DNA from: Verrucomicrobiales bacterium
GTDB lineage: Bacteria; Verrucomicrobiota; Verrucomicrobiia; Verrucomicrobiales; DEV007
Assembly: GCA_018058245.1 (NCBI GenBank)
Contig: JAGPCC010000009.1
Location: 1-37,016, forward strand
Length of the DNA stretch: 37,016 nucleotides
Direction: 5' to 3'
Below are positions 30,083 through 36,092 of the stretch, one piece after another (position 1 is the first letter of the stretch; every line of letters begins with the position of its first letter). The translations under genes and the position numbers were made by a program. Below the pieces are notes generated by a model, which worked only from the letters and a program-made list of their open reading frames with translations, made no database searches and was not told the DNA's origin.

Positions 30083-30520
30083 GGGGGAAAGTGGGGTCGC
30101 GAGTACTGAATCGAGAGAATCTTCGCCAAACTCGGAATCAAAAAATTCCGGTAGATAACAGGGTGGACTGAAATACTGAGGAGTATCCAGGGGCGCCCTG
30201 GGCGGCGGCGTACCGGATCGATCGTGAGATCCGGGGCGCTCTTTACTCTCGTCAGGGGAAGGCATGTCTAACGGGCTGTTGTTACGTTTTGATTTGGGGG
30301 TGGCAGCGGATCCGTCGCTTTTCGGAAAGAGAGTCCCTTCAATAAATATCGCATTACGATATGAGTCAATCAAAGAGCGAGTTCGTTTCCAGTTCCCGTA
30401 TTATCGATCGACTGCTCTGAGGGAGCGGCGAGGAAAACGTATTTCAAAATTGAAGCAACCGCCGCTTGCCTTTTTTTTTGATTTTGTCGTATTCTCACTG
30501 GATTCACTTCGAATTGCGCC
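30083..30520. other. Gap before the Whirly-like gene; open extension of the PLP enzyme frame
   Basis: On the minus strand the PLP enzyme frame is open to 30373. It has an ATG at 30263-30265 that would add 61 Pro/Ser/Asp-rich residues (S-G-T-P-P-P-R-A-P-L-D-T-P). I see no homology in it. The right end holds the candidate promoter of the Whirly-like gene and a run of nine T residues (30471-30479). No RNA gene is recognised. Confidence 0.35.
30466..30495 (+). promoter_or_regulatory. Candidate promoter of the Whirly-like gene
   Basis: TTGCCT (30466-30471) is followed after 18 bases by TATTCT (30490-30495), each matching four of six consensus positions. The spacer contains a T-run. A transcript start near 30502 would give a leader of about 19 bases. 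This is a pattern match only. Confidence 0.35.
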
Positions 30521-30967
30521 ATGAATCAGAATCCGCCTGTTCCGTCGTCCGACTACCCGATTTACAAACCGAATAACCGGGGGACCGGTGGTGTCATTCG
30601 GTTCGAGTTCAATCGGGAAAAAGCGGCGGTATTTGTGGAAGCCGCTTCGCAAGCAGGGGAGAAGCAGTTCGACTGGGAGAACAAAGCGACAATGAAATGG
30701 GGACTCCCGGACCTCGGAAACGCACTCGCGACGCTGCAGGGGCGGCAGTCGCAGACGAAGCTCTTTCATCAGTCGGAGCGGGCCAACAGCGCCTTTGAGC
30801 TGACGTATCAGACCGATCCGGATCGGGCCCCCTATCTGATGAGTCTGTCCCGGCAAAATCAGAGCGATAAATCTCTCAAAAAAGTCACGATACCGGTGTC
30901 GCACGGTGAGGCGGCGATTCTGGAAACGATCCTGAGAACGGCGGTGATTCGGATTCTTGGCTGGTAA
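30521..30967 (+). CDS. Whirly/MRP-like single-stranded nucleic-acid-binding protein
   Basis: This 148-residue soluble protein carries the landmarks of plant Whirly proteins and kinetoplastid MRP guide-RNA-binding proteins in the same order and spacing. They are Y-P-I-Y-K (12-16), a beta-rich segment V-I-R-F-E-F (25-30), G-E-K-Q-F-D-W-E-N-K (46-55; plant Whirly has G-E-R-K-Y-D-W-E), L-P-D-L-G (62-66), L-F-H (81-83), Y-L-M-S-L-S (105-110), V-T-I-P-V-S-H-G-E-A-A-I-L (122-134; plant V-P-V-T-K-A-E-F-A-V), and a terminal I-L-G-W (145-148). The plant K-G-N/K-A-A-L DNA-contact motif is replaced by K-P-N-N-R-G-T-G-G. Those families bind ssDNA or RNA as tetramers. The assignment is by eye, so the relationship is probable rather than proven. 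The start is ATG (30521) and no Shine-Dalgarno sequence is seen. The gene stands alone before two membrane-protein genes. Confidence 0.68.
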   Translation: MNQNPPVPSSDYPIYKPNNRGTGGVIRFEFNREKAAVFVEAASQAGEKQFDWENKATMKWGLPDLGNALATLQGRQSQTKLFHQSERANSAFELTYQTDPDRAPYLMSLSRQNQSDKSLKKVTIPVSHGEAAILETILRTAVIRILGW

Positions 30968-31037
30968 CACGAGCGGTCTCCGTTCACTCCCAACTTGCGA
31001 AGCGCGGGTGCGTAGCGTAGCAAGAGTCCATTTATCA

Positions 31038-31541
31038 ATGAAATCGCTTGAGTGGAAATGGGGACTTCTGATTGGAGGAGCGAATGTGGTCTGGCTCGTT
31101 CTTTCCTGGCTGATCGGCATGCACGGAAACGGGCTCGGTCTAATTCAGGTCATGTTTGTAGTTTCGTTTTTCCTCTCCCTTGTCGGATACGTTTTTGCCT
31201 TCCGAGCCATCCTCCTCGCGGAACCGGAGACAAGTTTTGTGGAAGGAATCCGGTCCGGCGCGATCATCGCCGGTCTTTCTGCGATCCTCGCGATCCTTGG
31301 GCAGGTTCTTTATTTCACGTTGCTGAATCCCGCTTGGACGGACTACTTAGTGGGGCTGACTCGCCAGCACTACGAAGCGATGGGGATCAATGCGGCCCAA
31401 TTGGAGCCTCTCCTGAGCCAAGCGCGGGCTGCCTACGGCTTTCAGAATTACGTAGTACAGTCCGGTCTTGGTGCTCTTCTCCTGGGGATGATCTTCAGTG
31501 CAGTGCTCATGGGTGCATTTCGATGGAGGGCTAGACGATGA
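31038..31541 (+). CDS. DUF4199-like membrane protein
   Basis: I choose the ATG at 31038 (167 residues); the frame is open further but the extra residues look non-coding. Four membrane helices are apparent (about 9-27, 36-60, 73-95 and 142-162), with a loop carrying Y-L-V-G-L-T-R-Q-H-Y-E-A-M-G. The arrangement (helical pair, acidic E-P-E-T-S-F-V-E-G-I-R-S-G, helix, amphipathic loop, helix) is that of DUF4199 proteins, whose function is unknown. The stop overlaps the start of the next gene by four bases (ATGA). Confidence 0.72.
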   Translation: MKSLEWKWGLLIGGANVVWLVLSWLIGMHGNGLGLIQVMFVVSFFLSLVGYVFAFRAILLAEPETSFVEGIRSGAIIAGLSAILAILGQVLYFTLLNPAWTDYLVGLTRQHYEAMGINAAQLEPLLSQARAAYGFQNYVVQSGLGALLLGMIFSAVLMGAFRWRARR

Positions 31542-32119
31542 TCCGAAAACGCAAACAATTGATCCTCGCGGCAGCCATGTTGCTCTTGATCCCTGCGGGA
31601 GTCTGGCTGCTCCTGCTCCAGCTGGGCCATGTGGCCGCCCCTGGGATGCAAGTTGTTCCGCCCTTCAATTTTTCGGATCGGATCGTCTCGATCGAAGTGG
31701 CCAAGGACGAGGCTGGAGTGCTACGAGCTCACTTCCATGGAGCAAAAGAAGGCACCATTGGATTAACCGGGGAGGAATTTCTCAATGAAATCGCGACCAG
31801 GAAAAAAACCCAACCGGGTGTCTACCGCCTCTTTGACGTTACATCTCTCACCGGGGTGTTGTGGGTGATCTTCGGATTTGTGGGACAGGCGATTTTCACC
31901 GCCCGCATGATTGTGCAGTGGCGGGCGAGTGAGAAAGCCCGCTCTTCCGTAGTTCCCCCGATCTTCTGGTGGCTGAGTGTCCTCGGAGCCTCCATGCTGA
32001 TGGTCTATTTCATTTGGAGAAAAGACATCGTCGGATTTATGGGCCAGAGTACCGGATGGTTTATTTACCTCCGGAATCTCTGGTTCATCTACGGAAAAGC
32101 TGACGCGAAAGCTCAGTAG
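31538..32119 (+). CDS. LAB_N (lipid A biosynthesis N-terminal domain) membrane protein
   Basis: This 193-residue membrane protein contains the LAB_N domain, in other bacteria sometimes fused to or found beside lipid A disaccharide synthase or glycosyltransferases. An N-terminal helix (about 8-30) is followed by an outer domain (about 35-105) and three helices. Signature segments are Q-A-I-F-T-A-R-M-I-V-Q-W (117-128), F-W-W-L-S (143-147) and G-Q-S-T-G-W-F-I-Y-L-R-N-L (169-181). Its ATG overlaps the DUF4199 stop and is preceded by GGAGG eight bases away, so the two are translationally coupled. The 3' end overlaps the convergent DUF1080 gene by seven bases. Confidence 0.88.
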   Translation: MIRKRKQLILAAAMLLLIPAGVWLLLLQLGHVAAPGMQVVPPFNFSDRIVSIEVAKDEAGVLRAHFHGAKEGTIGLTGEEFLNEIATRKKTQPGVYRLFDVTSLTGVLWVIFGFVGQAIFTARMIVQWRASEKARSSVVPPIFWWLSVLGASMLMVYFIWRKDIVGFMGQSTGWFIYLRNLWFIYGKADAKAQ

Positions 32120-33617: not shown

Positions 33618-34676
33618 TCAGTTGAGAGGATCGGTGTGCTCCTCCAGGATTTCGTCGGTCCGCTGAATGTTTGCCTCGGCCCGTTCGGGATGGGGAGTCG
33701 TGGCGATATGAAAAAGGGCGTCTCCTTCGTCGGCGTGTCCTTCCCTCGTGATGCCGATGACGATCCCTTTGTATTCACTGACGATATAGGTTTCATTGCG
33801 ACCGAATGGGTCGGCGATGACCCCGAGTTTTGTCCCAGGTTTGATCGCCTTTCCGAGATCGGTCAAAGGAATGACAAGACCGCCCTGAGGTGCTCGAACC
33901 CAAGTCGTGGAATTGGAGAAAACCATTTTGGGAGCTGGCTCGACTGATTTTCGCAGGGCTGGCAACATATGGAGATGCCGCAAGACCGAGTGAATCCCGC
34001 GCAGACCGTAGCGGACAGAGTCGGCCGGTAGTCGGAGCGCTTCTCCTCCCTCAAAGAGCAAGGTCGGTAAGCCTCGGCTGCGGAGGTAGTGTCGTAGCGA
34101 ACCTTCCCGCAGGCCGGTTTCGATGACCACCGGTGCTTTGAAAGCAGTTGCCATCTCTGCCGCGACGGTATCCCCGGGAGAAATCCGTATCTGTGGCAGG
34201 TTCGGTCGGCCGACGGTGCCGCCGTGAAAATCGATCGAGTGCGTACAATGGGGCAGGATCTCCTGCACAAAGGCATTGGCGAGACGCGATCCTAGAGATC
34301 CGATCGAAGAGCCGGGAAAGAGCCGGTTCAGGTCCCGACGATCGGGGAGATAGCGACTGCGATTCAGAAAAGCCGGCATGCAGACGACCGGGATCACGAT
34401 GAGGGTACCGCGCAGGCTCCGCAGTGACTTTGAATTCAAAACCCGTCGCAGGATTTCCACTCCGATCAGTTCGTCTCCGTGAATCCCAGCAGTGAGCAAA
34501 AGGGTCGGGCCCGGTTTGCGACTCCGCTGGACATGGACGCTCATGCTGATCGGCTGGTAGCCGGTCAGAGAGCCGATCGGTAGCTCCACGACGCCCTTAT
34601 CGCCCGGGAGAAACGTTGCCGATCCAATGGTGAGGGGTGGGATCCCGCTCTCTTCTGTTTTTTCTACGGTGATCAA
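33618..34676 (-). CDS. M14-family succinylglutamate desuccinylase/aspartoacylase-like enzyme
   Basis: This 352-residue cytoplasmic enzyme is a zinc carboxypeptidase-like amidase. The zinc site is G-I-H-G-D-E-L (His66, Glu69) with His151 in [18 protein letters not shown] (111-122) is the substrate-binding segment and F-E-G-G-E (208-212) holds a candidate catalytic Glu. The start is TTG (34674-34676), overlapping the rimK stop as TTGA, with A-G-G-A upstream inside rimK. It is translationally coupled to RimK, which suggests it removes or trims glutamate-type modifications that RimK adds, or acts on a RimK product. Confidence 0.92.
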
Positions 34677-35581
34677 CCTTTTCCTTTTGTTTTAGTGCTC
34701 TTTGCGCCCTTGTCGCTCTTTTCGATGAATTCAATGATCAACTTGGCAATGTCTTTTCCGGTCGCACCCTCGATTCCTGCAAGACCAGGTGAGGAGTTTA
34801 CTTCCATCACGACGGGTCCGTGGTTCGATCGCAACAGATCGACCCCGGCGACATTCAGACCCAGGATCTTGGCTGCCCGAGTCGCGGTGGAACGCTCTTC
34901 CGGAGTGATTTTTACAACAGACGCAGTTCCCCCGCGGTGAAGGTTCGAACGAAATTCGCCCTCTTTTCCCTGTCGTTTCATGGCCGCGACGACCTTGTCA
35001 CCGACGACAAAACAACGGATGTCTGCGCCCCCGGCTTCTTTGATGTATTCCTGCGCGAGAATGTTCGCGTTGAGCCCTCGAAACGCCTCGATAACGGATT
35101 CAGCGGCTTTCCGGGTCTCGGCGAGAACGACGCCAACACCCTGGGTACCTTCCAGCAGCTTGATCACGAGCGGGGCACCGCCGACCTGATCGATGAGAGC
35201 CTCGGTGGTGCGCGGGTCGTGCGCAAATCCTGTCACGGGGAGACCGATGCCGCGGCGAGCGAGAAGTTGGAGGCTGCGCAGTTTGTCCCGCGAGCGGGAG
35301 ATCGCGACCGATTCGTTTACACTGTTTACTCCCATCATCTCGAACTGTCGGACTACCGCACATCCGAAATGGGTGTACGTCGCGCCGATCCTGGGGATGA
35401 TGGCATCGAATCCCGTCAGTTTTTCGTCGCCCAGATAGATCGATGGCCGCAGTGAGGTGATCTCCATGTGACAGCGGACGTAGTCGATGACGCGCATGTC
35501 GTGTCCCATTTTGATGCCCGCTTCGTAGAGGGCATTGGTGGAATAGAGTTTTCGGTTACGCGATAAAATGGCGATTTTCAT
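34673..35581 (-). CDS. rimK: RimK-type alpha-L-glutamate ligase (ATP-grasp)
   Basis: RimK adds glutamate residues to the C terminus of ribosomal protein S6 in E. coli and makes poly-alpha-glutamate in vitro. The 302-residue protein matches it along its length: M-K-I-A-I-L-S-R at the start, I-P-R-I-G-A near 65, [14 protein letters not shown] (the ATP-grasp loop), Q-E-Y-I-K-E-A, and [10 protein letters not shown] (metal and ATP site). A basic tail (K-S-T-K-T-K-G-K-G) ends the protein. It sits between rimB (25 bases upstream) and the M14 gene (four-base overlap). The start is ATG (35579-35581). Confidence 0.96.
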
Positions 35582-35606
35582 GGTGCGGGGGATAGGAGGG
35601 TAAAGA

Positions 35607-36092
35607 TCAGACAGAGCGAGATTTAGAAGACAGGAGAGATTTGCCGAGCAGGTAGGAGAGCGATGGATTCACGAGAAATCGATTCTTCATCGCAGTTCGT
35701 CCTAAAAGCATCCGAAATTTCATGTTATCGCGATTTGTGAGGCTGAATTCGATCTCATAGGTCACGGGACCGAGTTGGACCGGCACAAGAATGAAAGGTC
35801 GGACTTCCTCATGCCCTCCCGAGTCCTTCACCTGACGTTGATTGATGAGAGGCCAGTCGCAATCGACCGAGGTGATGTTGTCCCTCTGTTTCGGATGGAC
35901 CGAGAACCGCACTCTCTCTTCTCCCGTCGGGGCGTGGTAAATCTCGAAGGAATGGGTATGGAGGCAGGAAGTCCGCGCCCCGGTGTCGATCTTTGCTTTG
36001 ATCCTCGGGATACCGAGCGCGGGCATTGAGAGCCATTCCCGCCAACCGAGGAGCGTGAGATCAGAATTGGGGCATGGTACATTCACTCGCAC
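35607..36092 (-). CDS. rimB: RimB-type retropepsin-like aspartic protease
   Basis: This 161-residue protein belongs to the RimB (DUF785, retropepsin-like) family, often encoded with rimK. The catalytic motif is D-T-G-A-R-T-S at 36-42, preceded by G-W-R-E-W at 16-20 and followed by R-P-F-I-L-V-P-V and L-L-G-R-T-A-M. The family is proposed to act as a dimeric aspartic protease cleaving polyglutamate-modified targets. The start used is GTG (36090-36092); a second GTG two codons on is possible. No strong ribosome site is visible and two overlapping hairpins lie just upstream, so start and regulation are uncertain. It begins the rimB-rimK-M14 unit. Confidence 0.9.

Follow-up and report, generated by a model that had tools for sequence, protein, structure and literature searches.

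A Whirly-family protein encoded in Verrucomicrobiota, with relatives in phages

A 148-aa protein encoded in a 37,016-nt stretch of DNA from a Verrucomicrobiales bacterium (contig JAGPCC010000009.1, the window) is almost certainly a member of the Whirly family. The explanation that we favour, with a probability of about 0.75, is that of a bacterial Whirly acting as an accessory binder of single strands. Recent papers treat Whirlies as specific to plants or as found in plants alone (PMC9070903, PMC11712025, PMC11359715), and Synechococcus is reported to have no Whirly homologue (PMC10909546). Real kin of Whirly are spread over one phylum of bacteria and occur in some phages as well, which means that the plant-organelle family exists in bacteria too. 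In the literature searched, outside which most subscription papers lie, there was no relevant pairing of Whirly and Verrucomicrobia. Individual bacterial or phage members are already flagged in databases.

Results

The gene starts with an ATG at position 30521 of the window and its stop codon ends at 30967, on the + strand. Translation bears out the 148-residue reading frame that an earlier note had placed here, and all seven landmarks listed in that note are found in it: YPIYK at residues 12–16, GEKQFDWE at 46–53, LPDLG at 62–66, LFH at 81–83, YLMSL at 105–109, IPVSHGEA at 124–131 and GW at 147–148. Between the window gene and its nearest orthologue the differences at codon positions 1, 2 and 3 are 0.13, 0.11 and 0.51, respectively, with dN of 0.15 and dS of 1.4. 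As the differences are mostly at third codon positions, the gene codes for a protein and is under purifying selection. The annotation of 30521–30967 (stop codon included) as a Whirly-family gene draws on the open reading frame, the Pfam match given below and this selection. Chance resemblance of motifs is ruled out by the profile, structure and selection evidence taken together.

In Pfam, the protein matches PF08536 (Whirly) with 41.8 bits, above the curated gathering cut-off of 23, and an E-value of 1.2e-10. A phmmer search against PDB returned plant Whirlies (StWhy2 as the best with E 4.7e-8, and also AtWHY2, p24, AtWHY1 and AtWHY3), the one non-Whirly match having an E-value of 1.6, as expected by chance. 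With a profile of the relatives the PDB match improved to E 2.4e-9. Moreover, hhalign of the bacterial against the plant Whirly alignments gave E 3.9e-13 over 118 columns, the GW of one aligned on the terminal GW of the other. The trypanosome-type MRP model PF09387, also named in the earlier note as a possible relative, has no sequence match to the protein at E up to 10, and the MRP link is therefore one of fold only. There is no model for the protein in NCBIfam and PHROGs and no match of it to PF00436 (OB-fold SSB). PF11680 (PUR domain/DUF3276) matches neither the protein at E up to 10 nor anything else in the genome.

The AlphaFold2 monomer model, made from an alignment of 16 sequences with no template, has a pLDDT of 91.8 and a pTM of 0.84. 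Strands are predicted at residues 11–16, 24–31, 36–46 and 56–60, followed by a helix at 62–72; then come strands at 78–84, 88–96, 105–113 and 119–126 and a helix at 128–146. This is the Whirly topology: two four-stranded antiparallel sheets with helices after strands 4 and 8. In the window the first predicted helix (LPDLGNALATL, residues 62–72) is encoded at 30704–30736 (+), the second sheet (residues 78–126) at 30752–30898 (+), and the C-terminal helix with its GW end (residues 128–148), placed as in plant Whirlies by the model and hhalign, at 30902–30964 (+). In plant Whirlies a C-terminal helix-loop-helix stabilises the sheets (PMC10909546).

The first 23 chains found by Foldseek are Whirly or MRP1/MRP2, and PURA is next. 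Superposed with VIA-align on Arabidopsis WHY2, the predicted model gives a Z-score of 18.1 and an rmsd of 2.0 over 132 residues, whereas the next fold after Whirly and MRP, that of PURA, has a Z-score of about 8 (8.2) at 4–5 Å. The structural match takes in residues 7–148; the earlier note had looked for coverage of residues 12–148, which is reached by the structure, while the Pfam match is limited to residues 35–136. Thus the Whirly/MRP-like identity proposed in that note is supported by the PF08536 match and the predicted Whirly fold.

Specifically, the protein shares with the plant Whirlies (PF08536; WHY1, WHY2, WHY3, StWhy2 and p24/PBF-2) significant homology, the same order of strands and helices, and the motifs Y-x-I-Y-K, F/Y-D-W, F-H, P-[VL]-x-x-x-E and terminal G-W. 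Z-scores against them are 17–18 over about 132–136 residues at ~20–25% identity. Unlike them, it has KPNxRGxGGVxRF for KGKAAL, fewer residues between strands 2 and 3, a bacterial host and no organelle-targeting region. Trypanosome MRP1/MRP2, which bind guide RNA, have the fold predicted here (2GIA, 2GID and 2GJE; Z about 16 over 134–137 residues) but no significant sequence similarity. PUR-domain proteins (Borrelia Bpur, 3N8B, and PURA) also bind single-stranded nucleic acid, and their sheets and helices resemble the predicted fold distantly; Bpur, a single repeat that dimerises, aligns with a Z-score of 4.9 over 69 residues. By fold, Bpur-type PUR proteins are the nearest studied bacterial cousins (PMC2954813, PMC3764826).

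A region that differs from plants is a loop in the first sheet. KGKAAL, the ssDNA-binding motif common to higher-plant Whirlies, is absent, and the window protein has KPNNRGTGGVIRF in its place. The first strand and loop, DYPIYKPNNRGTGGVIRF (residues 11–28, window 30551–30604, +), were placed from conservation, the model strands 11–16 and 24–31 and the plant sequences. Among 80 relatives the loop consensus I-Y-K-P-N-x-R-G-[STN]-G-G-V-x-R-F is nearly invariant, and its start, I-Y-K-P-N-x-R-G, stands at the position of plant Y-K-G-K-A-A-L. The replacement of KGKAAL by a Gly/Asn/Arg-rich loop had thus been read correctly from the single sequence. Y15, K16, P17, G23 and R27 are the same in 80 of 80 relatives, and N18, R20, G21, G24, V25, R111, Q112 and K121 are nearly so. 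The FDW strand region, GEKQFDWENKATMKW (residues 46–60, window 30656–30700, +), is the counterpart of plant GERKYDWEK according to phmmer, hhalign and conservation; F50, W52, K55, M58, K59 and W60 do not vary in the 80 relatives. Elsewhere K34, F38, Q44, D64, G66, A70, K80, F82, H83, S90, P100, P104, P125, E130 and W148 are invariant in this set. The core is uniformly basic, with a pI of 8.9–9.9 in all 80 loci.

Relatives were found in 10 of 57 near relatives by protein search. The Pfam Whirly model detects the family in 8 of 388 Verrucomicrobiota genomes and the profile of the bacterial relatives in 52 (13%), belonging to 33 of 199 genera. A scan of genome contigs yielded 126 loci encoding relatives, of which 80 were kept; the titles name Verrucomicrobiota lineages except in one case, 'uncultured bacterium'. 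Genomes assembled from metagenomes and named Prosthecobacter or Luteolibacter are among the carriers. The proposal of a family member in Verrucomicrobia therefore stands, with a wider range than the window genome: the family occurs across Verrucomicrobiota and in phages. There are two subfamilies, and the window protein is in one ending R-[IL]-[LI]-x-W. In the second (L112–L120), inserted residues precede the FDW strand and the terminal GW gives way to a hydrophobic sequence, LLQTGLFFVTF; the two members tested score near the Pfam cut-off. Presence is patchy even inside the genus of the window organism. Many near-complete relatives lack the gene, which is therefore dispensable. A protein from the same genus (G024) is 55% identical to the window protein, as against 67% for one from another family (G054), so that some transfer or old paralogy may be involved. 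The tree (141 columns, unrooted) has long branches for the plant sequences, L105 and L129.

Relatives are also encoded on nine IMG/VR contigs, of which seven form a close group and two are divergent. The 170-aa protein of L129, a 167-kb contig, has a Pfam Whirly match of its own above cut-off (E 3.3e-7), and a model built for the L101 protein can be superposed on AtWHY1 with a Z-score of 15.9. Among the phage proteins of BFVD, A0A6J5NR37 of an uncultured Caudovirales phage, already named 'Whirly transcription factor' in UniProt, matches the window protein with a Foldseek E-value of 2.4e-7, TM of about 0.7 and 23% identity. The plasmid and sequenced-phage collections gave no match to the window protein or the tested relatives. 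Both phage types with readable context have a gene for a homing/HNH-type endonuclease, a conserved protein and the Whirly gene in the same order within a few genes. The endonuclease upstream of Whirly belongs to phrog_559 (E 1e-12 to 1e-14).

It was also noticed that the conserved phage protein lies directly or closely upstream of Whirly (L099–L104, e.g. L101:3554–4510, and L129:7025–7678) and has motifs common to both phage types. By eye it resembles a single-strand annealing protein; Pfam, PHROGs and PDB did not confirm this, the best PHROGs E-value being 0.39 for one C-terminal stretch. When the phages were searched for T4 gp32, the control genomes themselves gave no match.

No conserved operon was found around the bacterial copies, the recurrent neighbours being a minority and lineage-bound. 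These are priA (directly adjoining in 10 loci, in divergent orientation), a P450 gene in 12, sulfatases and gyrAB. The priA neighbourhood is scattered, with 11 changes on the tree, and that of gyrAB is found mostly in one clade and at one further locus. Since the neighbours are scattered or clade-bound and mostly not conserved, context says little about function. As separate observations, L082, L097, L084, L049, L073 and L079, which belong to one lineage, have the Whirly gene a short way downstream of gyrA, and in five of them also of gyrB, on the same strand, and priA is near the Whirly gene, usually divergent, in 15 other loci.

Discussion

Our results on sequence, predicted fold and conservation point to a nucleic-acid binder. 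The basic charge and the invariant Lys, Arg and Trp residues are compatible with putative binding of single-strand DNA or RNA, and by analogy with the studied members we regard single-strand binding by the window protein as probable. Whirlies form tetramers that assemble into 24-mers; in plants they protect organelle genomes from rearrangement and coat single strands during repair or recombination. Judging from plant Whirlies and MRPs, a small basic protein with the predicted pair of antiparallel sheets, each of four strands, and two helices could form a similar tetramer. Its binding of ssDNA (perhaps RNA too) would depend little on sequence and would follow the edges of the sheets, between the subunits. 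The conserved K-P-N-x-R-G-x-G-G loop would stand in for KGKAAL of plants.

It is important to note that KGKAAL is required for ssDNA binding in plants and that algal and liverwort Whirly-like proteins do not have it (PMC9070903). The motif thus marks a higher-plant subgroup and not the family. As it is absent here, the contact surface may differ, and the invariant basic, glycine-rich loop found in its place suggests, at the level of sequence, a different contact. The loss of KGKAAL and the lack of an operon partner that would account for function could also be taken as signs of a diverged fold relative that has given up nucleic-acid binding, e.g. for a role as protein-interaction module, but this is very improbable given the invariant Lys, Arg and Trp on several strands, the uniformly basic charge and the absence of KGKAAL from the algal and liverwort proteins too (PMC9070903).

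The window genome has two OB-fold SSBs, both elsewhere than the Whirly gene, and an OB-fold SSB is found in 3 of the 9 phage records, which may be fragments. A role as the main SSB is ruled out by these, and because ordinary SSBs coexist with the Whirly protein, an accessory binder is the best reading. Beside SSB, it might coat single strands exposed at stalled forks, breaks and transcription bubbles. With plant Whirlies in organelles as the model, such coating could steer repair away from error-prone short-repeat annealing. By this analogy we put the chances that the protein serves genome maintenance, and not RNA handling or regulation, at about even.

The strongest competitor is an RNA binder similar to MRP1/MRP2, which would keep RNA unfolded and promote RNA annealing, its target being mRNA or small RNA and not the chromosome. 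MRPs are heterotetramers acting on RNA, and our model matches MRP1/MRP2, including the guide-RNA complex, nearly as well as it matches Whirly. In sequence, however, the matches are to Whirly only, with PF09387 absent even at E 10; moreover, the phage copies have an endonuclease gene beside them, and priA or gyrAB adjoins some of the bacterial ones. We therefore consider this MRP-like reading rather unlikely. Less likely still is a role in nucleoid architecture, in which the protein would compact or coat the double-stranded DNA of the chromosome in the manner of barley WHIRLY1 in chloroplasts, for which an architectural function in nucleoids has been described (PMC9070903). All relatives are basic, but the patchy presence, in 13% of the genomes, is not what one would expect of a core nucleoid protein. 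In E. coli, compaction has been linked to the PRAPP motif that monocot WHIRLY1 carries, and neither dicot WHIRLY1 nor WHIRLY2 shows it (PMC9070903).

Regarding origin, one tentative scenario, which we think has less than an even chance, is that Whirly is an old prokaryotic and phage family of single-strand binders with the KPNxRGxGG loop, from which the plant organelle Whirlies were derived by bacterial or phage transfer. The bacterial and phage branch is a lead on the origin of plant Whirlies. It also offers small proteins for biochemistry and a natural test of the need for KGKAAL in ssDNA binding.

Several further features of the window were noticed. A 239-codon antisense ORF at 30401–31120 (−) spans the entire Whirly gene. 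In 64 of 89 loci a homologous antisense frame is open too, which probably just follows from the conservation of the sense strand and from base composition. Downstream, at 31038–32119 (+), are a DUF4199 gene and one for a lipid A biosynthesis N-terminal domain protein (LAB_N), with no indication that these two belong with the Whirly gene. Further on, a three-gene run at 33618–36092 (−) resembles, by eye only, a desuccinylase/aspartoacylase, a RimK-type ATP-grasp ligase and a retropepsin-like zinc protease.
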